The position numbers and the translations under genes were made by a program. DNA of 64,000 nt, taken from NCBI RefSeq assembly GCF_001425235.1, contig NZ_LMEA01000001.1, positions 186,001 through 250,000 of the forward strand, written 5' to 3'. The stretch's first letter is position 1. Each line of letters opens with the position of its first letter. Positions 3,012 through 16,672 of the stretch are shown here, piece after piece. Origin of the DNA: Devosia sp. Root413D1 (lineage in GTDB: Bacteria > Pseudomonadota > Alphaproteobacteria > Rhizobiales > Devosiaceae). The notes under the pieces were generated by a model. It did not search any database and was not told where the DNA came from. It saw nothing but the letters and a program-made list of their open reading frames with translations.

Positions 3012-3734
3012 TCAGCTCACCGAAACCTGCGGCTCCCAGCTCGTCAGCAACCCTTCCCACCCCGGGAACCATTCGAGCAGCAGAATCTGCACGTTGCGGT
3101 CCCAACCGAGCCAGATGGCGAGCGCCGTCAGCAACAGCACGATCCCGAAGATCCGCTGGATGGTGGCGGCATGGCTCTGGAACCAGCCGAGCCGGCGCAC
3201 CAGTTGCCGGCCGCCCAACAGCACCGCCGCCATCGGCAAGGCGGTGCCGAGCGAGAAGGCGAGCGTCACCGCAACCGCGCCAAAACCCACCGACTGGTTG
3301 AGCGCCAGCGTGATCACCGACGCCATGATCGGCCCGACACAGGGGCTCCAGGCGAGGCCGAGCCCCACGCCCACCACCACGCCACCGCCGAAGCCGGTGC
3401 TCTGGCTGGCGGGCGCCCGTCCGGCAAGCCCGCTCGCCAGCCGCTCGAACTGCAGCTGCAGCCCGGGGATGACCAGCACCAGGCCGAGAATGGCGAGGAC
3501 CACGGCACTCAGCGTGCGGTTTATGTCGGGCGGCACACCCAAGAGCCGCACCAGTGCGCTCAGCGCCAGCGTCGCCGCGGTAAAGGCGAGGACGAAGCCG
3601 ACGATCACCCCGATCGGACGCGCCTTGCCCTCCTGCGTCGCCGTCGCGAGGATCATCGGCAACAGCGGCAGCACGCAGGGGGAGAGGATGGTGATGACGC
3701 CCGCGACGAAGGCGAGCGCGATAGTTGCCAGCAT
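3012..3734 (-). CDS. ccdA: CcdA-family thiol-electron transporter
   Basis: 240 residues with about six membrane helices, the size of CcdA (the short relative of the DsbD membrane domain). Two proline-flanked cysteines occur at the expected helix positions: SPCVLP near residue 19 and WSPCVGP near 131. These two carry electrons from cytoplasmic thioredoxin across the membrane. The gene follows a secreted thioredoxin-like gene after a 6-base gap, so the two probably form one pathway: CcdA reduces the thioredoxin-like protein, which reduces periplasmic thiols. Unlike cytochrome c maturation operons, no ccm genes are nearby; the neighbours are sulfur-transfer genes. Confidence 0.9.
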   Translation of the reverse strand: MLATIALAFVAGVITILSPCVLPLLPMILATATQEGKARPIGVIVGFVLAFTAATLALSALVRLLGVPPDINRTLSAVVLAILGLVLVIPGLQLQFERLASGLAGRAPASQSTGFGGGVVVGVGLGLAWSPCVGPIMASVITLALNQSVGFGAVAVTLAFSLGTALPMAAVLLGGRQLVRRLGWFQSHAATIQRIFGIVLLLTALAIWLGWDRNVQILLLEWFPGWEGLLTSWEPQVSVS

Positions 3735-3740
3735 CAGCGG

Positions 3741-4157
3741 TCAGAGCGCGCTGGTATGGGCGTTGAGGCCGTTGACCCCACCGCTGTTCCACAGCTCCAC
3801 GCCCTTGCCGTCCTGGTCGAGCAGCACGAACGTATCCTGGTAGGTGACGCCGAAGCGGGCCTTCAGCGCCTGCTCTTTGTCATAGTCGGCAATCACCAGT
3901 GTCAGGCCCGGGTTGACCTCGTCCCAGCGGGCATTGAGTTCGGTCACCGTGGCCCGGCAGTTCGGGCACCAGGCGGCATAGAAGAACACCACCGTCGTGC
4001 CCTTGGCGGCGAGCTCGGCGAGCTGCGCATCCCCCTCGTAGGAGAGCACCTGGGATTGAGGCGCTGCGACAGCCGCATCCTCGGCAATGGCCGGAACGAT
4101 TGTGGCAGGCAGCAGCAGGAATAGGGAGGTGAGAAGCAGGCGGAGCAATGGGCGCAT
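3741..4157 (-). CDS. Secreted thioredoxin-like protein (TlpA/DsbE-like)
   Basis: 138 residues. A signal peptide or anchor (RPLLRLLLTSLFLLLP, cleavage possible near AIAED) precedes a thioredoxin fold with the redox motif WCPNC (Cys64, Cys67), placing it in the periplasm. The ATG at 4155-4157 is preferred over a GTG at 4175 because it starts the basic-plus-hydrophobic leader and has a purine-rich GGAAAA upstream. It lies directly upstream of ccdA on the same strand, which should supply its electrons. The C-terminus is short after the fold. Its target could be cytochrome apoproteins, the neighbouring rhodanese, or the Cys-repeat protein at 6827-7183 (inference). Confidence 0.88.
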   Translation of the reverse strand: MRPLLRLLLTSLFLLLPATIVPAIAEDAAVAAPQSQVLSYEGDAQLAELAAKGTTVVFFYAAWCPNCRATVTELNARWDEVNPGLTLVIADYDKEQALKARFGVTYQDTFVLLDQDGKGVELWNSGGVNGLNAHTSAL

Positions 4158-4379
4158 GAAATGGTTTTCCGGCACGACGAGCCGTCGATTTGATCGGCAT
4201 TATCGCCTGCACCTGCGCGTATGCCTATGGGTTCACAAGGAAATTGATTGCCGCGAGGCCATCGCATGGCGACGGAAATTCCTGCCTTGCCCTGCAATTT
4301 GGAAACCTGTCGGCAGCATCGCACGGGGCGATGCGATTATGATGCCAACAAGTTCATGCTCGAGAGTGAGAATACTTCA

Positions 4380-5303
4380 ATGCGTTTCAACGTCCTCGCT
4401 ACGGCGCTCGTCCTCGGCCTTGCTGCCGCCGGCAGCGCGCAGGCCGAACGGCTGACCGATCAACCGCTGGTCGATGCCGCCTGGCTCAACAGCCAGCTCG
4501 GCAAGCCCGACCTGGTGATCATCGACATCCGCGACACCCCCAAGGATGGCACTGCCCCCTATGCCGCCGGCCACGTGCCGGGCGCTGTGGAAGCGCAGTA
4601 CGCCGCCTATGGCTGGCGCGCCAAGATCGACGGCGCTCCGGGCCTGCTCCCCAAGCTCGAGGATATTTCGGCCAAGATCGCGGCGCTCGGCGTCAGCGAC
4701 GACACCCAGGTGGTGATCGTACCGGCCGGCAGCGATGTCGCCGAATTCGGCGGCGCCACCCGCGTCTACTGGACTTTCAAGGTACTCGGCCACGACAATG
4801 TCACCGTGCTCGACGGCGGCTACAAGGCCTGGGCCGATGCCGGCCAGGCGGTCTCGACCGACGTCGTCACCCCGGTGGCCGGCAGCTTCACCGCCAAGCC
4901 GCGGCCGGAGCTGCGCGCCGAAGTGGCTGAAGTGGAAGAGGCGATCGCCAGCGACACCAACCTGATCGATGCCCGCTCGGTGGCGCAGTTCATCGGCAAG
5001 GAAAAGACCAACACGGTGCAGTCGCTCGGCTCCATCCCGACCGCGGTGAACCTCAACTTCGACAAGTTCTGGGACAAGGACGCCGGCAAGTTCGCGTCCA
5101 AGGCCTCGATCGATGCGCTGGTGCAGCAGGCCGGCGTCACCGACACCGACGGGCTGATCACCTTCTGCAACACCGGGCACCTCGCCTCGATCGCCTGGTT
5201 CGGCCTCTCCGAGGTCGCCGGCCTCAAGGGCGTGCGCCTCTATGACGGCTCGATGTCGCAGTGGACCCTCGACCCGGCCCGCCCCGTGGTGGTGCAGAAC
5301 TAA
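4380..5303 (+). CDS. Secreted two-domain rhodanese (sulfurtransferase)
   Basis: 307 residues. The ATG at 4380 begins a clear signal peptide ending GSAQA-ER, so the enzyme is exported; an upstream in-frame start at 4248 would bury that signal and is rejected. Two rhodanese-like domains follow. The N-terminal one keeps the fold (IIDIRDTPKDG, AGHVPGAVEA, DDTQVVIV) without an active cysteine; the C-terminal one has the active-site loop FCNTGHLAS with Cys263. Such enzymes move sulfane sulfur from thiosulfate or 3-mercaptopyruvate to a thiol acceptor. It is divergent from the thioredoxin-like/ccdA pair and upstream of a thiosulfate-type permease, which supports a periplasmic sulfur-handling role. 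Confidence 0.9.
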   Translation: MRFNVLATALVLGLAAAGSAQAERLTDQPLVDAAWLNSQLGKPDLVIIDIRDTPKDGTAPYAAGHVPGAVEAQYAAYGWRAKIDGAPGLLPKLEDISAKIAALGVSDDTQVVIVPAGSDVAEFGGATRVYWTFKVLGHDNVTVLDGGYKAWADAGQAVSTDVVTPVAGSFTAKPRPELRAEVAEVEEAIASDTNLIDARSVAQFIGKEKTNTVQSLGSIPTAVNLNFDKFWDKDAGKFASKASIDALVQQAGVTDTDGLITFCNTGHLASIAWFGLSEVAGLKGVRLYDGSMSQWTLDPARPVVVQN

Positions 5304-5618: not shown

Positions 5619-6830
5619 GTGACAGACATCAGCGCGTCTCCGGCCCCTTCCTTCAGCTGGCCCAAGCTCGACCGCGGCCCGGTGATCGTGGCCCTCGCCA
5701 TGTTCGTCATCGGCAGCGTGGTGATCGGCCAGGTGGTCGACCTGCGCCAGACCGTGCTGTTCCTGATCGGCGGCCTGCTCGGCGCGACGCTCTATCACGC
5801 CTCGTTCGGCTTCACCGGCGGCTGGCGGCGGCTGGTGGTCGAAAGGCGCGGCGCCGCCGTGCGCGCCCAGATGCTGATGGTCGCCATCGCCACCATCGTC
5901 TTCATTCCGCTGCTCGCCGGTGGTTCTGCCTTCGGCCGCCCGCTGGTCGGCGCTGTGGCTCCGGTCGGCGTCTCGGTCGTGATTGGTGCTGCCATTTTCG
6001 GGCTCGGCATGCAGTTGGGCGGCGGCTGCGGCTCGGGCACGCTGTTCACCGTCGGCGGCGGCAGCGCTCGCATGCTGGTGACGCTTGCCGCTTTCATCTT
6101 CGGCGCACTGCTCGGCACCGCCCACCTCCCGTGGTGGCTGGCGCAGCCATCGCTGCCCAGCATCAGTCTCGGCACCAGCCTTGGCGCGCCGCTGGCCATC
6201 ATCGTGACGCTTGCCGGCCTCGCTGCCGTCGCCGGCATCACCGTGCTGATCGAACGCCGCGCCCATGGCGGGCTCGAACAGGCATCGAAGCCGAAGACCC
6301 GCGGGCTGTCGCGCCTGCTGCAGGGGCCGTGGCCATTGGTCGGCGCCGCGGTGCTCCTGGCGCTGCTCAATATCGCCACGCTGCTGATCGCCGGGCATCC
6401 CTGGTCGATCACCTATGGCTTTGGCCTCTGGGGCGCCAAACTCGCCCAGTCGGTCGGCGTGCCGGTCGAAACCTGGGCGTTCTGGACCGCCCCGGCTCAG
6501 GCCCAGGCGCTCAGCCGCAGCGTGCTGTTCGACATCACCTCGGTGATGGATTTCGGCATCCTGCTCGGCGCGGCCCTCGGCGCTGGGCTCGCCGGCAAGT
6601 TCGCCCCCAAGGCCGACCTGCCGCTCAAATCGGCGCTCGCTGCGGTGATTGGCGGCCTGCTGATGGGCTATGGCGCCCGGCTGTCGTTCGGCTGCAATAT
6701 CGGCGCGCTGTTCAGCGGCATCGCCTCGGGGAGCCTGCATGGCTGGGTCTGGTTCGCCGCCGCCTTCGCCGGCAGCTTTGTCGGCATCGCGCTGCGTCCG
6801 GTGTTCGGTCTCGACGGGTTCAAGAAATGA
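5619..6830 (+). CDS. YeeE/YedE-family membrane protein (thiosulfate-uptake type)
   Basis: 403 residues with many hydrophobic helices arranged as two related halves. Each half has the family's glycine-cysteine signature: QLGGGCGSGTL with Cys137, and LSFGCNIGAL with Cys359. In the characterised relative TsuA (YeeE) such cysteines line the pore and pass thiosulfate through by transient hydrogen bonds. The GTG at 5619 is chosen because it begins a plausible polar N-terminus after AGGATC; an ATG-like start at 5553 lies inside a hairpin. The stop overlaps the next gene start (ATGA at 6827). The substrate is thiosulfate or another sulfur species by family; selenium compounds are not excluded. Confidence 0.88.
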   Translation: MTDISASPAPSFSWPKLDRGPVIVALAMFVIGSVVIGQVVDLRQTVLFLIGGLLGATLYHASFGFTGGWRRLVVERRGAAVRAQMLMVAIATIVFIPLLAGGSAFGRPLVGAVAPVGVSVVIGAAIFGLGMQLGGGCGSGTLFTVGGGSARMLVTLAAFIFGALLGTAHLPWWLAQPSLPSISLGTSLGAPLAIIVTLAGLAAVAGITVLIERRAHGGLEQASKPKTRGLSRLLQGPWPLVGAAVLLALLNIATLLIAGHPWSITYGFGLWGAKLAQSVGVPVETWAFWTAPAQAQALSRSVLFDITSVMDFGILLGAALGAGLAGKFAPKADLPLKSALAAVIGGLLMGYGARLSFGCNIGALFSGIASGSLHGWVWFAAAFAGSFVGIALRPVFGLDGFKK

Positions 6831-7183
6831 GCGGTTCGCGTAACACCCTGCTGTTCGGCGCCGCGCTGCTCGCCGCCACTGCGGCCGTCGCCGCCGACCA
6901 CATCAGCCGCGGCAGCGGCGCCGCGGCCCCCACGGCAGTCACCGCGGGCGCCGATGCGGCCCCCTGTGCCGCGGCCTCACCCTGCGCGGCTGAATCGCCC
7001 TGCGCCGCCTCGTCTCCTTGCGCCGCAGCTTCGCCTTGTGCGGCGGCCGCCCCCTGCGCTGCAGCCGCCCCATGTGCCGCAGCGGCTCCCTGCGCTGCAG
7101 CCGCTCCTTGTGCCGCAGCTGCTCCCTGCGCTGCGGCAGCTCCTTGCGCCGCGGCCGCGCCCTGTGCGGCAGGCAGCCTCTGA
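6827..7183 (+). CDS. Secreted Cys-repeat protein: 12 tandem PCAAxx hexapeptides
   Basis: 118 residues, start ATG overlapping the upstream stop as ATGA. A signal peptide (MSGSRNT, then hydrophobic LLFGAALLAATAAVAA, cleavage near AVAA-D) is followed by about 24 polar/Ala residues and then 12 uninterrupted hexapeptides with the pattern Pro-Cys-Ala-Ala-x-x. Repeats 1-4 carry Ser or Glu at the variable places, repeats 5-11 are PCAAAA, and repeat 12 ends the protein. Every cysteine is therefore six residues from the next. Codon choice varies between repeats (TGT/TGC, CCC/CCT/CCA), so the amino-acid pattern is what is kept. No lipobox or known metal motif is seen. I do not recognise the family. Its operon and neighbours suggest sulfane-sulfur, thiol-redox or soft-metal binding in the periplasm. 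Confidence 0.85.
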   Translation: MSGSRNTLLFGAALLAATAAVAADHISRGSGAAAPTAVTAGADAAPCAAASPCAAESPCAASSPCAAASPCAAAAPCAAAAPCAAAAPCAAAAPCAAAAPCAAAAPCAAAAPCAAGSL

Positions 7184-7791
7184 TGACCGACGCCGCGGAG
7201 CGGCTTCGCGCGGCGCAGGAAGCGCTGTTCTGCGAGGAGGTACTGCGCAAAGGCGGTGATAACGTGCTGCACGCCACCTTGCGTGATGCGCCGGTGATCG
7301 CCTGGAGCCACTACCCGCCCGGCGACGTCTACGACCCGGCCTCGGGCGGCCAGTGGTACTATCACTGCCACATCCCGGCAGCCGAAGCCGAGCACGGCCA
7401 CTTCCATTGCTTCGTCCGCCCCGACGGCAAGGATGGTCCGGTGCATCACCTGATTGCCGTCGGCGTCGATGCGCATGGCCGGCTGCAGCGGCTATTCACC
7501 GTCAACCAGTGGGTGGTCGGCGACAGCTGGCTCGATGCCGAACCGAGCATCGCCCTGCTCGATCGCTTCGACATTGAGATGCCGCAGCCCTCCTACCTCA
7601 CCAACCGCTGGCTGAGCGCCATCCTCCGGCTCTACGCCGACGAGATCGCCACGCTGATCCGGCAGCGCGACGCGACCCTCGCGGCGCGCCAGGCGCCGGG
7701 TGGCGCACCGATCCGCGACGATCGCACGCTGGAGGTCACCTCGGAACTGCGCGTCGACCTCGCGTCCACGGTTCGGGCCCTGAGCCAATGA
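7183..7791 (+). CDS. Uncharacterised His/Cys-rich protein
   Basis: 202 residues, cytoplasmic by absence of a signal. The ATG shares one base with the stop of the PCAA-repeat gene (TGATG), and its own stop overlaps the next start (ATGA). The centre is rich in possible metal ligands: HCH at 61-63, HGHFHC at 71-76 and HH at 88-89, set in a segment beginning GGQWYYHCHIP. The C-terminal third is helical and charged. From memory it may belong to a domain-of-unknown-function family (DUF6969), but I cannot verify this. The strict coupling to the Cys-repeat gene argues for a shared task. Function unknown. Confidence 0.85.
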   Translation: MTDAAERLRAAQEALFCEEVLRKGGDNVLHATLRDAPVIAWSHYPPGDVYDPASGGQWYYHCHIPAAEAEHGHFHCFVRPDGKDGPVHHLIAVGVDAHGRLQRLFTVNQWVVGDSWLDAEPSIALLDRFDIEMPQPSYLTNRWLSAILRLYADEIATLIRQRDATLAARQAPGGAPIRDDRTLEVTSELRVDLASTVRALSQ

Positions 7792-8210
7792 GCTACCTTG
7801 CGATCAGCGTCACCGAAACGCCGGCAGCCGAGGACCTCGCACTCATCAGCGGCCAGCTCACCGCCTTCAACGAAGCCGATGTCGGCCCGGCCGACCGCCG
7901 TCCGCTGGCCGTGGTCGTTCGCGATGACGCCGGCAGCATCGTCGCCGGCATTTCCGGCTACACCGCCTGGGGCTGGCTCTACGTGCAGTGGCTGTGGGTC
8001 GCCGAGGATCAGCGCGGCGCCGGCCTCGCCGGCCGCATGCTGGCGGCGGCGGAGGCCGACGCCAAAGCCCGCGGCTGCCACAGCGCCTATATCGACACCT
8101 TCAGCCCGGTGGCGCTGAAGACCTATCAACGGGCGGGGTATCTGCCGTTCGGCGCGCTCGAGGATTTTCCCGAGGGGCGGACACGGACGTTTCTGCAGAA
8201 GCGGCTCTAG
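7788..8210 (+). CDS. GNAT-family N-acetyltransferase
   Basis: 140 residues with a standard GNAT core: a beta-strand block ending WLYVQWLWVAEDQRGAGLAGRML at about 61-83, which holds the acetyl-CoA pyrophosphate loop (QRGAGLA), then a helix and the YQRAGYLPFG segment near the C-terminus. It is the last gene of the four-gene overlapping operon that starts with the YeeE-type permease. Substrate is not predictable; possibilities include a small sulfur metabolite or an amine on one of the operon's proteins. An inverted-repeat element follows. Confidence 0.88.
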   Translation: MSYLAISVTETPAAEDLALISGQLTAFNEADVGPADRRPLAVVVRDDAGSIVAGISGYTAWGWLYVQWLWVAEDQRGAGLAGRMLAAAEADAKARGCHSAYIDTFSPVALKTYQRAGYLPFGALEDFPEGRTRTFLQKRL

Positions 8211-8370: not shown

Positions 8371-9489
8371 TCAAGCCGCCAGCCGTCCCCCCAGCAGCGG
8401 ATGCGGCGCCCCCGTCGTCGTCGGAAAGCTGATCGGCAGGCCGCGCAGCACCCGCACGGCAAGAAACGCAAAGCACTCCGCTTCGATCGCATCGCCGCGC
8501 CAGCCGACGGTTTCCGCCGGGGCGGCCTCAACGCCGGCCCGCGCCTTCAGCATCTCCATCATCAGCGGGTTATGCCGCCCGCCACCCGAAACGATGAGCT
8601 TGCTCGGCCGGGTCGGCAGGAGGTCGAGCCCCTTGCCGACGGCGGCGGCCGTGAAGGCGGTGAGTGTCGCCGCGCCGGTGGCCGGGTCGAGCCCGTCAGC
8701 CATCGCCGAAGTGAAATCGAAGCGGTCGAGCGATTTGGGCGGCGGCGCGCTGAGATAGGGATGCTGCAAGAGCTTTGCGAGCCGCACCTCATCGACCGTA
8801 CCGCTCCGCGCCAGCGCCCCGTCGCGATCCATCTCGCCCAGCCCATGCGCCTTCATGAAATCGTTGAGCGGCGCGTTGGCCGGGCCGGTATCGAAGGCGA
8901 CCAGCCGGTCGGCGCCATCCCAATAGGTGACGTTGGCGACGCCGCCGAGGTTGAGCACGGCCGTCTCGCCATGCGTCCCGAGCCCGCGCAGTAGCGCCTG
9001 GTGGTAGATCGCAGCGAGCGGCGCGCCCTGCCCGCCGGCCCGCACGTCGGCCGAGCGGAAATCATAGGCGACCTTCACCCCGAGCAGCTGGTGCATCAGT
9101 TCGCCATCGCCGAGCTGCCGGGTGGCCCCGATCCGCCCCGGCTGCGGCGCCCGGTGCAGCACTGATTGGCCGTGAAAGCCGACGACGCCGATATCGGCCA
9201 TGCCGAGCCCGGCGCTCTCCACCAGGTTCTTGACCGCCGCCGACTGCGCCCGGGTCAGCATCTCTTCCGCCTTGGCGAAGATGGCGGGATCCGGACCGTC
9301 GAAATTCCATTTGCGCGCCTCGGCCAGCGTCGCTTCGAGCGTATCGCGGATAGCCTGCGGATAAGGTGCCAGGGTATAGGCGCCGAAGCGCTCGATGCTC
9401 TCGCCGTCAGTTTTGAGGAGCGCCACGTCGATATTGCCGTCGAGCACGGTGCCGGTCATCAGTCCCACGGCCCAGATCGGTGCTGGCAT
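8371..9489 (-). CDS. anmK: Anhydro-N-acetylmuramic acid kinase
   Basis: 372 residues, the family's usual length. The N-terminal phosphate loop [16 protein letters not shown] (about 9-24) matches the AnmK pattern GLMSGTSLDGID with small changes. Later blocks [25 protein letters not shown] and [13 protein letters not shown] are also characteristic. The enzyme opens 1,6-anhydro-MurNAc and phosphorylates it to MurNAc-6-phosphate, the substrate of MurQ, which is encoded nearby. The gene is the distal member of the minus-strand recycling operon, starting 11 bases beyond the serine hydrolase stop. Confidence 0.95.
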
Positions 9490-9500
9490 GGTTCTTCCCC

Positions 9501-10505
9501 TCAGTTCTCGTTGACCAGGTCGCCCACGGCGCGGCGCAGCGCGATGATGCCGCTGTCAAAATGTCGGGTCGGGTGCACGCGGTTGGTGAGCAGCGTCCAG
9601 GCCCGTCCCGTGGCGAAATCGATCCACAGGCCCGTGCCGGTGAAACCGGTATGGCCGATGGTCTCAGCCGAACAGTGATCGCCACCCGACCAGCCTTCAT
9701 AGGGCCGCTCCCAGCCATGGGTGCGGCGCGGCGACAGCGCAGTGCGCATCAGCGCAATGCTGCCGGGCGCGGCGCCGGTGCCGGAGAGGAGGCCCTGCGC
9801 GTAGTCGAGCACCGAGCTGGCCGTGCCGAACAGCCCGGCATGCCCGGAGCCCTGCAGCGCGTAGCAGTTCTCGTCATGTACTTCGCCGACGATGACCCGG
9901 CCGCGCCAGGCGTCCCGCTCGGTGGCGGCGCTCAGTTGCGGGTCGGCTGACCAGCCGAAGCCAGGACCCGGGTCCTGCTGCCGGATCAGCTTGCCGCTCA
10001 GCCGCTCGAGCGCAATGCCGAGGAGGATAAAGTTGATGTCGGAATAGACCGGCGGCCCCGCCTGCCATTCGTTCTGCAGCACCCAGGCGCGCAGCAGGTT
10101 CGGGTCGTTCCCATAGGTGTAGATCGGCACCACCCCGGGGAACGGCGTCTGGTGGCCGAGGCACTGCCGGAAGCTGAGCTTCCGCTCCCAGCTGTTGTCC
10201 GGGTTGTACTGCCGGAAGTCGGGGATCACCGAAGTCAGCGGCGCATCGAGATCGATCGTGCCCGCCTCGGCCAGCGCCAGGATGCGCGGCGTGGTGAAGA
10301 TCACCTTGGTGAGCGAGGCGAGATCGAACCAGGTGTTATCAGTCATCCCCCGCTCCGCCGGCACCAGCTGCGCCGAGCCGATCGAGCGGACGGCACGGTT
10401 GCCGTCGCGGTCGACGACACCCAGCACCCCGCCGGGGATCCGCTTCGCTGCTACCGCCGCCTGCAGCGGCGCGAAAGCGCGATCGAGAACAGCGGTAAGA
10501 CTCAT
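9501..10505 (-). CDS. Serine hydrolase of the beta-lactamase/PBP4-like family, possible muropeptide amidase
   Basis: 334 residues. Three active-site motifs of the class C-type serine hydrolases are present: SLTK (Ser64, Lys67), YSD (154-156) and HTG (285-287). No signal peptide is seen, so it acts in the cytoplasm, unlike a resistance beta-lactamase. The ATG at 10505 overlaps the ABC ATPase stop (ATGA) and has a GGAGG site. In Bacillus subtilis the MurNAc recycling cluster encodes AmiE, a MurNAc-L-alanine amidase of this same fold. Lying between an importer and anmK, this protein could strip peptides from imported muropeptides (inference). Alternatives are a D-aminopeptidase or esterase. Confidence 0.85.
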
Positions 10506-12229
10506 GCAGTTTCCTCCACGCGCACGCGATGATCGTCGCCCGCCTCGCGCCACTTTGCTGCCGGCGGTTCGAACCCTGCTGGACGCACCAGCGAGGGCAC
10601 CTGGGTCACGTCGACGGCAAAATGCTGGCGCCGCCGTTCGATCGCCGGCACTGCCGCGATCAATCGCTTGGTATAGCTGTGCTGCGGTGCGCCGAGCACT
10701 GCCGCCGCCTTGCCGATCTCGACGATCTGGCCGGCATACATCACCGCCACCCGGTGCGCGATGCGCTCCACCACCGCCATATCGTGCGAGATGAAGAGGT
10801 AAGCGAGGCCGAACTCGCGCTGCAGGTCGATCAGCAGTTCGAGCACCCGCGCCTGCACGCTGACATCGAGCGCCGACACCGCTTCGTCCAGCACCACCAC
10901 ATCGGGGTTGAGCATCAGCGCCCGGGCGATGCAGAGCCGCTGCCGCTGTCCGCCCGAGAACTGGTGCGGGTAGCGGCTGAGCGCGTCCTTGGTCAGCCCG
11001 ACCCGCTCGAGCAGGAACACCATGCGCTGGCGCAGCTTGGCGTCGACGCGCTGGCCCGCGGCGATCGCCGGTTCGGCCAGCAGGCCCTCGACATTGAGGC
11101 GCGGATTGAGCGAGGCGTAGGGGTCCTGGAACACCATCTGCACCGGCCGGCCGCTGCGGCCGGCCTTGGCTTCGATCCGGCCGCGCGTCGCTTTGACGAG
11201 GCCAAGAATGGCCCGCGCCGTGGTGGATTTGCCCGAGCCGCTTTCGCCGACAATGGCCAGCGTCTCACCCGGCCTGAGCTCGAAATCGACGCCGTCGACC
11301 GCATGCACCGCGCCGGTCTTGCGCCGGAACAGCCCCTTCAGCACCGGAAAGCGCACGGCGAGGTTATCGACCGTGACGATCGGCGCCGCGTGCGAGCCGC
11401 CATCGCTGCGCACCGCACTGCCGGAGGTGAAGTGCGGCACCGCTTTCAGCAAGTGCCGGGTGTAGTCGTGCTGCGGGTTATCGAGCACGCTGTCGAGCTT
11501 CCCCTGCTCCACCGCCACGCCGTGCTGCATCACCATGATGTCGTCAGCGATGCCGGCGACGAGCCCGATATCGTGGGTAATAAAGATCATCGCCATGCCA
11601 AGCTCTTCCCGGAGCTCGGCCAGCAGCGCCATGATCTGCGCCTGCACCGTCACGTCGAGCGCCGTGGTCGGCTCGTCGGCGATCAGCAGTCGCGGGTTGC
11701 TGGCCAGCACCATGGCGATCATCACCCGCTGCCGCATGCCGCCCGACAGCTGGTGCGGGTAGTATCTGAGCCGCTGCGCCGCATCAGGGATGCGCACCCG
11801 CTCCAGCGCCTCGCGGGCCGCCCGGGTTGCTGCGGCCCCGACCAGGCCACGATTGAGCCGGAAGGCTTCCTCGATCTGCGCCCCGACGGTGTGCACCGGG
11901 TTGAGCGAGGTCATCGGCTCCTGAAAGATCATGCCGATCTCGCGGCCGCGGATGCGCTGCAGCGCCGGCTCGTCCGCCGCGGTGATGTCGATCGCCGCGC
12001 CGTCGGCGCGCTGCAGCGTGATCTTGCCCTTGGTGATGCGCCCGCCGCCGAAATCGACCAGCCGGTTGACCGACAGCGCCGTCACCGATTTGCCCGAGCC
12101 GCTCTCGCCGACAATGGCGAGCGTCTTGCCGGCCTCGAGCCCGAAGCTCACGCCCTTCACCACCTCGTTGTCCCGGGGTTCACGGCCGAACCCGACATGC
12201 AGGTCCCGGACCTCGAGCAATGTGCTCAT
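10502..12229 (-). CDS. Oligopeptide-type ABC transporter, fused double ATPase (DppDF type)
   Basis: 575 residues containing two full nucleotide-binding domains in one chain. Domain 1 has GESGSGKS near 40, signature LSGGMRQR and Walker B LLIADEPT. Domain 2 has GESGSGKS near 330, FSGGQRQR and VVLDEAVS. The second Walker B reads DEA instead of DEP, a common variant. Each domain ends in the oligopeptide-family C-terminal extension. It powers the importer encoded by the next three genes upstream and overlaps both neighbours by 4 bases. Context suggests a muropeptide or peptide substrate. Confidence 0.93.
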
Positions 12230-13068
12230 GCGGCCCTCCCCTGCGTGCGCGGATCGAGGATGTCGCGCAGCGCATCACCGAGGAGGTTAAAGCCGAGGAT
12301 GGCGAGCATGATGGTGAGGCCGGGGAAAATCATCAGCCAGGGGGCACGCGTCATCATCGACTTGCTCTCGGCCAGCATCACCCCCAGCGATGGGGCCGGC
12401 GGCTGCGTGCCGAGGCCGAGGAAGCTGAGGCCGGATTCGGTCAGCAGCGCCCAGGCCAGCGCCAGGGTGATCTGCACCGTCAGCGGCGCGACGAGGTTGA
12501 GCAGCAGGTGCCGGGTCAGGATATAGCCCTGCGAACTGCCGAAGGTGCGCGCCGCTTCGACGAACTCGCGTGCCTTCAGCGCCAGCGCCGGCGCCCGCAC
12601 CACGCGGGCAAAGATCGGCGTATAGACGATACCGATGGCGACAATGCTGGTCACCATGCCCGCCCCCTCGATCGCCACGATCAGCAGCGCGAGGAGGATC
12701 GCCGGAAAGGCCAGCAGCACATCCATGGTCCGCATCAGCACCCCATCCCACAGGTGTCCCCACCAGGCGGCGAATAGCCCGATCACCGCCCCGGCACTCG
12801 CCGCGACGGCGACCGAGGCGAAGGCGACGATGAACGACTCGCTGATCCCCAGCATCAGCCGGCTGAAATTGTCGCGACCAAGCAGGTCCGTGCCGAACCA
12901 GTAGGTAGCGCTCGGCGGCTTCAGCCGATCGACGACGAACTGCTTCAGCGGATCGTGCGGCGTCAGGCCCACCACGCCGAGCCCGGCGAGCACGAGGAAG
13001 ATGAAAATGATCGCCGCACCGATGCGGCCGCTTGGGTGTCGCCACACCGCCTTGAGCAAGCCCATCAC
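12226..13068 (-). CDS. ABC transporter permease, DppC type
   Basis: 280 residues with an N-terminal helix after MMGLLKAVWRHPSGRIG, a periplasmic loop holding FGTDLLGRDNFSRLM, and the cytoplasmic EAA loop REFVEAARTFGSSQGYILTR, all standard for DppC/OppC. About six membrane segments. Start and stop overlap both neighbours by 4 bases. It pairs with the DppB-type subunit encoded just upstream. Confidence 0.93.
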   Translation of the reverse strand: MMGLLKAVWRHPSGRIGAAIIFIFLVLAGLGVVGLTPHDPLKQFVVDRLKPPSATYWFGTDLLGRDNFSRLMLGISESFIVAFASVAVAASAGAVIGLFAAWWGHLWDGVLMRTMDVLLAFPAILLALLIVAIEGAGMVTSIVAIGIVYTPIFARVVRAPALALKAREFVEAARTFGSSQGYILTRHLLLNLVAPLTVQITLALAWALLTESGLSFLGLGTQPPAPSLGVMLAESKSMMTRAPWLMIFPGLTIMLAILGFNLLGDALRDILDPRTQGRAA

Positions 13069-14024
13069 TTGCCCCCGAGCCGGATGCGCGGATCGAGCGC
13101 CGCATAGGCGAGATCGACCAGGAGGTTCACGACGAGGAAGTTGAGCGCGATGAACAGCACGGCGCCCTGCACCAGCGGATAGTCACGCTGGCTGATTGCG
13201 TCGAGCGTCAGCCGGCCGAGCCCCGGCAGGGCGAAGATCTGCTCGACGATCACTGCGCCACCGAGGAGGTAGCCGAACTCGACGCCCGACAGCGTCACCA
13301 CCGGGATCAGCGCATTGGGCAGCGCATGCTTCCAGACCACGTCACGCTGCGAGGCACCCTTGCTGCGCGCTGTGCGCACATAATCGTCGCTCAGCACATC
13401 GAGCATGGCCGAGCGCGAAATGCGGGTCACCGCGGCTGCGAAGCTGAGGCCCAGCGTGATCGACGGCAGGATCATCTGGCTGAGATTGCCGATCGGGTCG
13501 ACGAATAACGGGGTGAACGAGCCCATTGCCGGCAGCATGCGGAAGGTCACCGAGAGGAAGTAGATCAGCACCAGCCCGACGACGAAGCTCGGCGTCGATT
13601 GCCCGAGCATGGCGAAGAGCCGCACCACCAGGTCGGAGGGCCGATCGACGCGGGTCGCGGCGAACACCCCCGCCGGAATGCCGACAGCCAGCGAGATCAG
13701 CATGGAGAGAAGCGACAATTCGAGGGTGAGCGGGAAGCGGGCGAGGATCACCTCGAGCACCGGCTTGCCATAGGTCACCGAGATGCCGAGATTGCCTTCG
13801 AACAGCCCGGCGAGCCAGCGGCCATATTGCACGACGATCGGCTGATCGAGGCCGAAATAGGCCGCCAGCGAGGCGCGCTGCGCCTCGGTCAGCAACCCCG
13901 CTTCGGTCCCCAGCATGGCGATGATCGCGTCGCCGGGCACCAGCCGGATGGCAAAGAACACCAGCAGCGATACGCCCAGCAACACCAGCGGGAACGTCAG
14001 CAGCCGTTGCGTGAGATAGTTCAT
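13065..14024 (-). CDS. ABC transporter permease, DppB type
   Basis: 319 residues. The N-terminus (MNYLTQRLLTFPLVLLGVSLLVFFAIRLVPGD) is the DppB/OppB hallmark first helix and loop. The EAA loop DDYVRTARSKGASQRDVVWKHALPNALIPV is well conserved and the C-terminus ends in the family's LLVDLAYAALDPRIR. Six membrane segments are expected. A strong hairpin separates it from the binding-protein gene upstream. Confidence 0.93.
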   Translation of the reverse strand: MNYLTQRLLTFPLVLLGVSLLVFFAIRLVPGDAIIAMLGTEAGLLTEAQRASLAAYFGLDQPIVVQYGRWLAGLFEGNLGISVTYGKPVLEVILARFPLTLELSLLSMLISLAVGIPAGVFAATRVDRPSDLVVRLFAMLGQSTPSFVVGLVLIYFLSVTFRMLPAMGSFTPLFVDPIGNLSQMILPSITLGLSFAAAVTRISRSAMLDVLSDDYVRTARSKGASQRDVVWKHALPNALIPVVTLSGVEFGYLLGGAVIVEQIFALPGLGRLTLDAISQRDYPLVQGAVLFIALNFLVVNLLVDLAYAALDPRIRLGGK

Positions 14025-14047
14025 GTCGGCCGCACCCGCCTGTTGGT

Positions 14048-14071
14048 GAGGCGGGCCGTGGGGCCCGCCTC
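14048..14071 (-). terminator. Intercistronic hairpin between binding protein and permease genes
   Basis: GAGGCGGGCC-GTGG-GGCCCGCCTC: a perfect 10-bp stem with a 4-base loop, no T-run. It follows the binding-protein gene within the operon, a position where such stems protect upstream mRNA or reduce read-through, raising binding-protein level over the membrane subunits. Confidence 0.6.
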
Positions 14072-14137
14072 CTAGGAGCGCTTTCAGGAAAAGTTGCAGA
14101 GTTTTCCGGTTCGAAAGCGCGACAGAAATCTATGCGC

Positions 14138-15658
14138 TTACTGACCCACGGTCACCTTGCTCAGCGCGAACAGCAGGTTGCTCGGGTTGATCTCGTAGCC
14201 CTTCACGCTGTCGAGGTTGGCCGTGTAGGTCACCGTGCTGGAGATCCACACCCACGGGGCCTGCTCAGCCAACCGCGCCTCGAACTGCTGGAAGATCGGC
14301 TTGCGCTTCGCCACGTCGGTTTCGACCCGGCCTTCCTGCAGCAGCTTGTCGAGCTCGGGATCGGAGAAGTTCGACACCTTCACCAGGTTGCCGTCCTTGG
14401 TGAAGTAGCGGTTGTACATCGGGTACGGATCCGGACGGCCACCGTTCTGCGCCACCGCCATGTCGAAATCGCCCTTCAGCCAGGTGTCGACATAGACCTT
14501 GAGATCCATGGTCTTGATGTTGAGCTTGACGCCGATCGCGGCGAGCTGGCTCTGCAGCACCTGCGCCTCGTTGGCGGCATAGGGCGGCTCGCCGGTCGCG
14601 GCGATCACATCGACCGAGAAGCCGGCTTCCTGGCCCGCTTCCTTCATCAGCGCCTTGGCCTTGTCGACGTCCTGCGTATAGCAGAACAGCGTCGAGGGGT
14701 CGGAGGCGTAGGCTGCCATGGTCAGGGGACCGGTGACCTTGCCCTCGCCGATCAGCGCGGTATCGATGATCTCCTGCCGGTTGACGGCGCACGAGATCGC
14801 CTGCCGCACCTTGAGGTTGTCCATCGGCGGCCGCGACGGGTTCATCTGCAGCACGTTATAGGCGAGGCCCGGGATGCGGTTGAGGGTCATGCCCTGCTCG
14901 CCCGGAATGAGCGTCGCGATGGTCGGGTCGTTGAACAGCGCGAAATCGATCTGGTTGGCGCGCATCGAGTCGATGATGGCGCTCTCGCTCGGCAGCACCG
15001 AGATGGTGATGCCGTCGACGCCGACCTTGCCGCCGGCCCAGTTCGGGTTGGGGCTGAGCACTTCCTTGACGTTCGGATCCCACTGGTCGAGCTTGAACGG
15101 GCCCGAGCCGATGGCGGTGGTGCCGATGCTGCCATCGGTCACCGCGCTCGCCGGAACGATCGAGGCATTAGTGCCCGACATGGCGACGAGGATCGGCGCA
15201 TCGGGCTGGCTCAGGTGGAACACCACCGTCTGCGGGTCGGGCGTGTCGATCGAGGCGATCGAGGTGAAGTTGGCCCGCGCCGCGGCGGCGGTCGCTTCGT
15301 CGAGCAGGCGCTCGAACGAGGCCTTCACGTCGGCCGAGGTCACCGCGTCGCCGGTCGAGAATTTGGCGTTCGGGTCGAGCTTGAAGGTGAGGGTCAGTCC
15401 GTCGGGCGAGAATTCCCAGCTCGTGGCGATGGCGGGCGACACATTGTAGTTCGCGTCGAGCCGCACCAGCGGCTCGTAGATCAATTCGAGCAGGCGCAGC
15501 GACGAGAACGCCGTCTGCTTGTGCGGGTCGAGCCCGGTCGCATCCTGCGACCACGCCATGCGGAGGCTTGCGGCCTGAACCGGCAGGGCGAAGGCGGTGG
15601 TCAGCGTTGCCGCGACGGCAAGGCCGGCGAGCAATCGTTTGGTCGTGGTCAAATGCAT
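14138..15658 (-). CDS. Peptide-type ABC substrate-binding protein (family 5)
   Basis: 506 residues. A signal peptide (HLTTTKRLLAGLAVAATLTTAFALPVQA) precedes a DppA/OppA-type receptor with DPHKQTAFSSLRLLELIYEPLV and an ATSWEFSPDGLTLTFKL strand. It captures the substrate in the periplasm for the permease pair encoded downstream. The locus, with murQ on one side and a serine hydrolase and anmK on the other, suggests a muropeptide ligand; a plain oligopeptide is the alternative. It is first in its transport operon, 78 bases beyond the murQ stop. Confidence 0.92.
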   Translation of the reverse strand: MHLTTTKRLLAGLAVAATLTTAFALPVQAASLRMAWSQDATGLDPHKQTAFSSLRLLELIYEPLVRLDANYNVSPAIATSWEFSPDGLTLTFKLDPNAKFSTGDAVTSADVKASFERLLDEATAAAARANFTSIASIDTPDPQTVVFHLSQPDAPILVAMSGTNASIVPASAVTDGSIGTTAIGSGPFKLDQWDPNVKEVLSPNPNWAGGKVGVDGITISVLPSESAIIDSMRANQIDFALFNDPTIATLIPGEQGMTLNRIPGLAYNVLQMNPSRPPMDNLKVRQAISCAVNRQEIIDTALIGEGKVTGPLTMAAYASDPSTLFCYTQDVDKAKALMKEAGQEAGFSVDVIAATGEPPYAANEAQVLQSQLAAIGVKLNIKTMDLKVYVDTWLKGDFDMAVAQNGGRPDPYPMYNRYFTKDGNLVKVSNFSDPELDKLLQEGRVETDVAKRKPIFQQFEARLAEQAPWVWISSTVTYTANLDSVKGYEINPSNLLFALSKVTVGQ

Positions 15659-15736
15659 GGTGTTTCCCTCTCTGTTTTCAGTCTCGGCCGATAACGGCAG
15701 CGCCGCTTCGGCAGTCGCTAGATCGTCGTCTACTGC

Positions 15737-16672
15737 TCACGCACCAGCTTCGAGCGCGCGTCTCAGGAACCCGCCGGCGCCCGCCATGGCGGTGCGCGCC
15801 TCGGCCACATCGAGGCCGGTGAGGATGGTCAGGATCGCCAGCTTCACGTCGTTGCCGGTGCGCTCCAGCGCCGCTTCGGCGACCTGCTCGGGGCAGTCGG
15901 TCGCCTGCATGACGATGCGCACCGCGCGCGCCAAGAGCTTCTCGTTGCTGGTCCGCACGTCGACCATCAGGTTCTGGTAGGTCTTGCCGATGCGGATCAT
16001 GCTCGCGGTGGAGAGCATGTTGAGCACCAGCTTCTGCGCCGTGCCCGACTTGAGCCGGGTCGAGCCGGTGACCACCTCGGCGCCGACCAGCGGCGCGATC
16101 GAGATGTCGGCGAGGCCGGCAATGGCGGAGTCCGGGTTGCAGGTGAGCCCCACCGTTACCGCGCCGAGCGACTTGGCGTAGTTCAACGCGCCGATCACAT
16201 ACGGAGTGCGGCCGCTGACCGCGATCCCTACCACCACGTCGCGGTTGGTGAGGTCGATGGCCCTGAGGTCCGCAGCGCCGCCTGTGGCGCTGTCCTCTGC
16301 CCCTTCGACGGCGCTGACCAGCGCGCCGAGGCCGCCGGCGATCACCCCCACGACCATCGTCGGTGGCACGCCGAAGGTCGGTGGACATTCCGAAGCGTCG
16401 AGCACCCCCAGCCGTCCGCTGGTGCCGGCGCCGATATAGATCAGCCGCCCGCCCTTGCCGAACGCCTCGACGATCTTGTCGACCGCCTGCGCCACCTGCG
16501 GCAGGGTCTTGCCAACCGCCTCGGGCACCAGCCGGTCCTCGGCATTGATGGTCTTGACGATCTCCGGCGTTGCCATCAGGTCGATGCCCATGGTGCGCGG
16601 ATTGCGCTCCTCCGAGACGAGCTGTTCGAGCTCGCTCAGCAAGGCCCGGCGATCGCTGACGACGGCGGTCAT
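15737..16672 (-). CDS. murQ: N-acetylmuramic acid 6-phosphate etherase
   Basis: 311 residues, typical size. The SIS-fold sugar-phosphate site [24 protein letters not shown] at about 78-101 is the MurQ signature, with Glu in SEC and [10 protein letters not shown] near the N-terminus also conserved. The enzyme removes lactate from MurNAc-6-phosphate, giving GlcNAc-6-phosphate. AnmK, encoded at the far end of the same strand block, supplies the substrate. The gene is divergent from a MurR-like regulator, the arrangement seen for murQ/murR in E. coli. Confidence 0.96.

Follow-up and report, generated by a model that had tools for sequence, protein, structure and literature searches.

The window, that is, the whole 64-kb stretch of DNA analysed here, contains on its forward strand a row of genes for a rhodanese-type sulfurtransferase (4380-5303, +; Pfam E 1.6e-26), a YeeE/YedE-type importer with an inferred GTG start (5619-6830, +; Sulf_transp, PF04143; Pfam E 4e-72, 243.8 bits against a cut-off of 27), a 118-residue protein with a repeated Pro-Cys motif (6827-7183, +), a 202-residue DUF6969 protein (7183-7791, +; PF22308; Pfam E 1.6e-70, 237.2 bits against a cut-off of 27) and a GNAT acetyltransferase (7788-8210, +; Pfam E 1.7e-11). 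The third gene, which we call the PC gene, is packed tightly between its neighbours. Its ATG overlaps with the YeeE stop codon (6827-6830), and at its other end, at 7183, its stop codon shares sequence with the DUF6969 start codon, an ATG. The acetyltransferase gene in turn overlaps the DUF6969 stop; it is probably incidental to the operon, and an acetyltransferase of this type was found near DUF6969 in 4 of the 108 loci described below. A thioredoxin-like protein (3741-4175, -; Pfam thioredoxin E 3.9e-9) and a CcdA/DsbD-type membrane protein (3012-3734, -; Pfam DsbD_TM E 3e-12) are encoded divergently. Known RNA elements were absent across the window at the gathering score, and an anti-phage system was rejected, since four operon proteins gave no PADLOC match (E 0.001). 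Elsewhere in the window, an apparent cell-wall recycling cluster occupies the reverse strand (8371-16672, -). Its anhydro-MurNAc kinase and MurNAc-6-P etherase score above cut-off, and a peptide-type ABC transporter and a weak PBP4B-like serine hydrolase lie between those two.

The PC-array protein gave no match to Pfam or NCBIfam models at E 0.01, and none to PADLOC. Its translated sequence contains an array of 12 PCAAxx units (6962-7177, +) with 12 PC dipeptides, and all 11 Cys-Cys spacings are exactly 6, just as the original prediction had described. No second PC array was found in the window by a fixed rule. When the organism's own genome was searched with the protein, a single match was obtained at E<=1e-5, and the next best had E 0.18. 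AlphaFold predicts one N-terminal helix of residues 3-27 (RNTLLFG...ADH; 6833-6907, +), with a mean pLDDT of 88 for residues 1-10 and 94 for residues 11-20, and it predicts residues 32-118, including the array, to be disordered. Two known meanings of such a motif were rejected. A prenylation CaaX box was ruled out because the motif is internal, and prenylation of this sort is not known from bacteria; a lipobox was ruled out because the Cys follows Pro.

In order to clarify how the array has been maintained, we compared its codons. Among the first 11 units, 220 of 330 comparisons differ at third codon positions, and 38 and 10 differences were found at first and second positions, respectively. 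Between the array and the copy of Devosia insulae (locus L085; loci of our survey carry the prefix L), there are 27 synonymous and 0 nonsynonymous differences (pS 0.431, pN 0), while the first 45 codons gave pS 0.126 and pN 0.031. The complete lack of nonsynonymous change in the face of 27 synonymous ones indicates that purifying selection acts on the peptide pattern. The prediction that the pattern is under selection while synonymous codons vary was therefore correct.

The neighbouring sulfur-related proteins were characterized as follows. The window YeeE falls below the cut-offs of the NCBIfam TsuA models (61.6 of 400 and 43.7 of 645 bits), and it matches the TsuA structure 6leo with E 7.6e-10. 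Its Cys residues C135 and C357 (numbering of the 5625-6827 fragment) are kept in 60/60 aligned rows. The rhodanese has a single Cys, C263, which is kept in 59/59 rows, and its N-terminus looks like a signal peptide by eye. The own genome has one TusA match, which lies on another contig, outside this operon.

Downstream of the PC gene, DUF6969 is predicted with confidence (mean pLDDT 94.2) to fold into a structure for which no close counterpart was found. That is, Foldseek against the PDB gave no match at E<=0.001 (best 0.53), viral models gave no significant match (best 0.29), and comparison with solved sequences gave no convincing relative (best E 0.79). Among 109 sequences, the window's included, the residues His61, His63, His73, His75, His89, Pro45, Gly72 and Arg162 are invariant, and none of the three Cys is. 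Thus, DUF6969 is not an obvious sulfur acceptor of the YeeD or TusA kind. Judged from these conserved residues, the role of a metal-binding enzyme or binding protein fits DUF6969 better than that of a thiol carrier. No signal peptide was seen by eye at its N-terminus, so the protein is probably cytosolic. DUF6969 was absent from the open-licence literature that we searched.

We then asked how widely the PC protein and DUF6969 occur together. In the taxonomic family of the window, DUF6969 was found in 79 of 136 genomes and the PC protein (E<=1e-5) in 59; the conservation in related genomes on which the original prediction depended is thus plain, as relatives abound. Of the 67 PC matches, 64 (in 56 of 59 genomes) were immediately followed by DUF6969 in the same orientation, and 0 of the 136 genomes had a PC match but lacked a DUF6969 match. 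An alignment search with DUF6969 gave at least 578 confirmed stretches, of which 80 were kept; among the matches listed, Devosia is closest, and Aminobacter, Pelagibacterium, Mesorhizobium, Thauera, Thalassospira, Azospirillum and Marinobacter also appear. These 80 were combined with 40 fetched regions, namely 20 picked in the window's family and 20 of the 21 places found by a phylum search (the window's own being left out). The resulting 120 loci were reduced to 108 distinct ones by removing duplicates.

In these loci, 3 or more PC motifs in a stretch of 60 residues, whatever the reading frame, were counted as an array. By this rule, an array lies no further than 2.5 kb from DUF6969 in 67 of the 108 loci (77/120 before removing duplicates). 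There are 72 arrays in the 577,720 bp near DUF6969 and 0 in the 605,755 bp further out. Fifty of the 72 lie within 300 bp upstream of DUF6969 on the same strand; on the opposite strand, 9 lie upstream and 1 downstream. As for the 41 loci without an array of at least 3 units, 17 contain a PC protein of this kind or the end of one (14 recognized by the N-terminal pattern described below, and L154, L157 and L168, the last Cys of the L157 protein following Ile), 4 contain another Cys-rich protein (L117-L120), one (L112) ends at a contig edge, and 19 have no such protein nearby. An array elsewhere in the genome was found in 5 of 17 genomes searched.

We also surveyed an even draw of 398 genomes of the phylum. 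An NPC-type match was present in 15 of 20 genomes with DUF6969 and in 53 of 378 without it (Fisher p 6e-9), the latter number being an upper bound because some matches at E<=0.001 are spurious (e.g. L222). Three of the five DUF6969 genomes without an NPC-type match have another Cys-rich protein adjoining (L117, L118, L120). Overall, DUF6969 adjoins exported-looking Cys-rich proteins of the PCAA, NPCAAK, GCCAAE, CAACAAGC and GCGAAKCGAK types. Several individual loci may be described here. On pSymB of Sinorhizobium meliloti ml28 (CP140934.1; L249: 8502-9546), a sulfurtransferase, YeeE and a PC protein precede DUF6969; the gene table, whose listing is incomplete, omits the PC protein and annotates DUF6969 as a hypothetical protein. 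One genome of the window's family (G010) has both forms, that is, DUF6969 with NPCAAK-cytochrome arrays and DUF6969 with a YeeE-linked PC protein (L100 and L101). Six loci (L107, L108, L110, L177, L188, L202), of which the last three are from Thalassospira, combine DUF6969 with an FGE-sulfatase-type protein, a cytochrome c and TRAP transporter genes, and they carry an NPCAA array on the opposite strand.

For the PC proteins themselves, we gathered a family of 75 distinct members, the window's included, with [RK]NTxLFG...DH as their common N-terminus. The regular expression used to collect them demanded residue classes at some N-terminal positions and one Cys after residue 20, and it was applied to sources chosen via DUF6969, PC-array-protein or NPC-array matches; one false member was removed (76 to 75), and the expression misses relatives such as those of L157 and L168. 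The members contain 601 Cys, and Pro precedes 598 of them. The number of Cys per member ranges from 1 to 28 with a median of 6, some members holding one or two only (L155 has a single Cys), and copy number shifts fast among close relatives. A spacing of six accounts for 317 of 526 Cys-Cys spacings, and only 9 of the 75 members show mostly hexad spacing (more than 85% of spacings six, with at least 5 Cys), among them a distant member of Oceanibacterium hippocampi with 18 units (L237). Thus, the exact hexad pattern of the original prediction holds in the window and not across the family, whose constant element is Pro-Cys-(Ala/Ser/Gly) in 1-28 copies. In 47 of the 75 members, a PC lies within the last ten residues.

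At seven N-terminal positions of the PC proteins, the commonest residue reaches a frequency of 0.92-1.00. The regular expression itself accounts for part of this conservation, but it places no demand on the Pro before Cys or on the neighbouring YeeE. As a control, the signal peptides of 56 rhodaneses of the same loci, with start codons picked by a script, gave commonest-residue frequencies of 0.19 to 0.84, mostly below 0.5. We therefore read the conserved N-terminal segment as an anchor or recognition element and not as an ordinary signal peptide, and the PC-array protein is probably membrane-anchored. The protein had been described beforehand as a signal peptide followed by little more than repeats. 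The array agrees with this description, but the conserved single helix does not look like an ordinary signal peptide, and the array does not follow it directly, as about 20 residues separate the two.

A consistent link of such proteins to yeeE had been named in advance as a check, and it was obtained: the PC gene lies directly downstream of YeeE in 74 of the 75 members, with a gap of -1 to 19 nt (the exception is L167/L211). Five of these members (L213, L215, L228, L236, L237) come from genomes with DUF6969 in another locus, which indicates that the YeeE link does not require an adjoining DUF6969. We also took 63 loci with a YeeE C-terminus and picked the downstream product without demanding Cys. 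A PC protein was picked in 61, and the picks in the remaining two (L173, L175) had wrong starts, both loci holding PC proteins; no Cys-free product was thus found behind YeeE. Around DUF6969, YeeE is near 64 of the 108 loci, and rhodanese lies within 5.5 kb in 60. Of the sulfur and redox neighbours named in the original prediction, the rhodanese thus recurs often, and CcdA-like and thioredoxin-like proteins are near only 19 and 20 of the 108 loci, respectively.

Outside the Devosia-type group, many arrays consist of NPCAAK-like units behind an ordinary-looking signal peptide. In L100, L109, L111 and L113, NPC arrays are fused to a SoxA/TsdA cytochrome domain (PF21342) above the Pfam cut-off, a domain which the window PC protein lacks by Pfam. 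Among 14 aligned fusion rows (13 distinct, as L203 equals L111), CxxCH and C195 are invariant, and the profile of these 14 proteins matched SoxA 1h31 in the PDB with E 4e-10, the invariant Cys aligning with one SoxA Cys. On the other hand, the NCBIfam SoxA model (TIGR04484) stays below its cut-off in the same four proteins (27.2-31.4 bits of 110), CCP_MauG passes its cut-off in all four and beats SoxA in L113, and L111, when compared with the PDB by itself, matched MauG and di-haem peroxidases instead of SoxA. The SoxA link of the cytochrome-fused arrays is therefore weak. In L106, the array is fused to a sub-threshold match to cytochrome P460. One family of the phylum (f39) has many array matches, and no DUF6969 was found in it; in its loci L214, L216, L218, L224, L229, L233 and L234, a monohaem SoxA/TsdA-like domain is joined to NPC repeats. 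In each of L121-L123, the PC protein and DUF6969 are accompanied by rhodanese, a short YeeE-like gene and a regulator of the ArsR type. L121 has two half-length Sulf_transp (YeeE) genes above the Pfam cut-off with a TsdA-like cytochrome and HiPIP nearby, and its regulator matches BigR best, below cut-off (109.9 of 155 bits).

Taken together, we favour a sulfur function for the PC-array cysteines. Our leading explanation, which we hold tentatively and would put somewhat short of an even chance, is that the PC protein provides membrane-tethered, flexible thiol arms in the periplasm that carry sulfur, sulfane or thiosulfate-derived, for YeeE. The periplasmic rhodanese would load sulfur onto the Cys of the Pro-Cys-Ala-Ala motifs, the N-terminal helix would keep the protein beside YeeE, and the disordered tail would hand the sulfur to the two conserved YeeE Cys for passage into the cytoplasm. 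DUF6969, a soluble protein rich in His that probably binds metal, would be a dedicated, probably cytosolic partner for maturation or handling. In other bacteria, sulfur may be loaded by the SoxA/TsdA-like haem domain to which the array is fused. In this scheme, we infer the localisation, the cargo, the direction of transfer and the activity of DUF6969. The explanation is supported by the YeeE link of 74/75 members, including the five with DUF6969 elsewhere, by the frequency of YeeE and rhodanese near DUF6969 (64/108 and 60/108), by the YeeE-TsuA match and the invariant Cys (one in rhodanese, two in YeeE), by the cytochrome fusions and the gene combination of L121, and by the unchanged array relative to D. 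insulae and the predicted disordered tail. A sulfur-carrier array serviced by DUF6969 would explain both the YeeE link and the link of DUF6969 to varied Cys-rich proteins. Several observations speak against it, namely the lack of an invariant Cys in DUF6969, the members with one or two Cys, the weak SoxA link, and five loci (L117, L118, L120, L193, L197) in which the DUF6969 partner is Cys-rich and no YeeE or rhodanese was detected nearby. A search of the own genome for SoxA/TsdA and SoxY gave 0 matches, but it also detected 0 of 14 controls. The original interpretation is thus supported in part; it had overlooked the DUF6969 partner and the SoxA/TsdA-like fusions.

The strongest rival, which we consider rather unlikely, is by analogy a RiPP-like modification. 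In the way that MNIO enzymes act on bufferins, a metal-dependent DUF6969 would modify PC-motif Cys prior to export, the N-terminus being a recognition leader and the modified array binding copper, another soft ion or reactive sulfur. The several sequence types of exported-looking Cys-rich proteins beside DUF6969, its five invariant His with no significant PDB match by Foldseek, and the PC N-terminus, more conserved (partly by selection of the members) than rhodanese signal peptides of the same loci, would all suit it. In L119 (1-11001, G501), moreover, DUF6969 lies in a bufferin-like cluster that also encodes DUF2063, DoxX and a BufB-type MNIO scoring above cut-off; this locus further has an ECF-type sigma factor, labelled by eye from similarity to other loci, and, immediately before DUF6969, a Cys protein of the GCGAAKCGAK type. 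MNIO precursors likewise can have 1-18 Cys and directly precede the enzyme gene, according to PMC12452194. Against such a modification, NPC arrays are also present where the genome has no DUF6969 match, the PC N-terminus follows YeeE no less closely than it follows DUF6969, and no MNIO enzyme (PF05114) was found in the own genome by a search that detected 2 of 14 controls. Modification and sulfur carriage can both be true at the same time. A specific combination of this kind, in which DUF6969 would represent a new class of Cys-modifying metalloenzymes unrelated to MNIO that matures a broad and so far undescribed class of exported Pro-Cys arrays, the matured, membrane-tethered array of the YeeE branch being an obligate sulfur antenna of the importer, seems to us unlikely.

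The cysteines might instead serve, unmodified, as a periplasmic metallothionein-like buffer for soft metals or metalloids (Cu, Cd, Hg, As or Se species). The number of Cys, up to 28 and nearly all in PC, would suit such a buffer. In L109 (5855-7762, -), an SBF-family transporter, an LMWPc protein and an ArsR-type regulator adjoin the NPC-cytochrome array, a trio which we take to resemble an arsenic resistance operon, and L100 also has an LMWPc gene (6031-6516, +) beside its NPC-cytochrome array. At L109, therefore, metal or metalloid chemistry is favoured, and these genes slightly lowered our estimate of the sulfur carrier and slightly raised that of the buffer. We nevertheless judge the buffer improbable, since the recurrent neighbours are YeeE and rhodanese, metal binding does not require regular spacing, and, besides the L109 trio, no metal-resistance family was among the 25 commonest of 121 Pfam families in a tally of 99 of 163 listed neighbour ORFs from 16 loci. 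A redox buffer or a disulfide-linked mesh in the periplasm, with CcdA and the thioredoxin-like protein keeping it reduced, would account for the two genes diverging from the window operon, but we think it very improbable in view of the rarity of both genes near other DUF6969 loci and of the member with a single Cys. Finally, a neutral or recent low-complexity repeat without function, or an artefact, would agree with the fast change of copy number among close relatives. Its likelihood is negligible given the pN of 0 against a pS of 0.431 in the array, the constancy of Pro before Cys (598/601) and the clustering of all 72 arrays near DUF6969 with 0 further out.

Comparing the PC protein of the preferred sulfur-carrier explanation with known proteins, SoxY bears a flexible Cys-bearing arm, one per protein. 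In contrast, PC proteins have 1-28 Cys arms and a DUF6969 partner, and the window PC protein is predicted as a helix with a disordered tail and lacks the SoxY domain PF13501 (Pfam, E 0.01). There is also a likeness: the SoxYZ sulfur carrier has been proposed to feed the YeeE-like importer SoxT (PMC11582611), so that in both proposals a periplasmic Cys carrier would pass sulfur to an importer of the YeeE family. In thiosulfate uptake by YeeE-YeeD (TsuA-TsuB), the importer belongs to the same family and has three Cys as described in PMC11073785, of which the window YeeE (5625-6827 fragment) keeps two. The window YeeE scores below the NCBIfam TsuA cut-offs, and has no TusA in its operon. The bufferins and oxazolins, which are MNIO-modified RiPPs, are similarly exported, Cys-rich, variable in repeats and encoded directly upstream of a dedicated protein (PMC12452194). 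The window PC arrays differ from them by the Pro-Cys motif and by the coupling to YeeE and rhodanese; a tblastn search with a single MNIO query placed an MNIO near 1 of the 108 DUF6969 loci, and the PC protein had no bufferin or MNIO precursor signature in the public Pfam and NCBIfam models (E 0.01), which are distinct from the profiles of PMC12452194. The yeeE-yedE-pdo2 operon of Acinetobacter, which is under BigR, likewise combines YeeE-type genes with a BigR regulator, and the regulator of L121-L123 is BigR-like; no PC protein or DUF6969 is described for that operon in the available text of PMC7315123.

No description of the module of YeeE, PC array and DUF6969 was found in the open-licence literature, and one may exist elsewhere; the accessible portions of PMC12452194, PMC11582611, PMC13047784, PMC11073785 and PMC7315123 do not mention it. 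The module spans Devosia to Thauera, with other forms in Thalassospira and Marinobacter among the matches listed, and the related locus on pSymB of S. meliloti makes it directly testable. To our knowledge, the delivery of zero-valent sulfur to YeeE-type importers outside Sox bacteria is poorly known. The PC protein may represent a type of protein, sulfur-carrying or cysteine-modified, that has so far gone undescribed. If the sulfur-carrier explanation is true, these bacteria would have a sulfur carrier with many arms where SoxY, as generally understood, has one, and if the modification is true, DUF6969 would represent a new class of RiPP-like enzymes.
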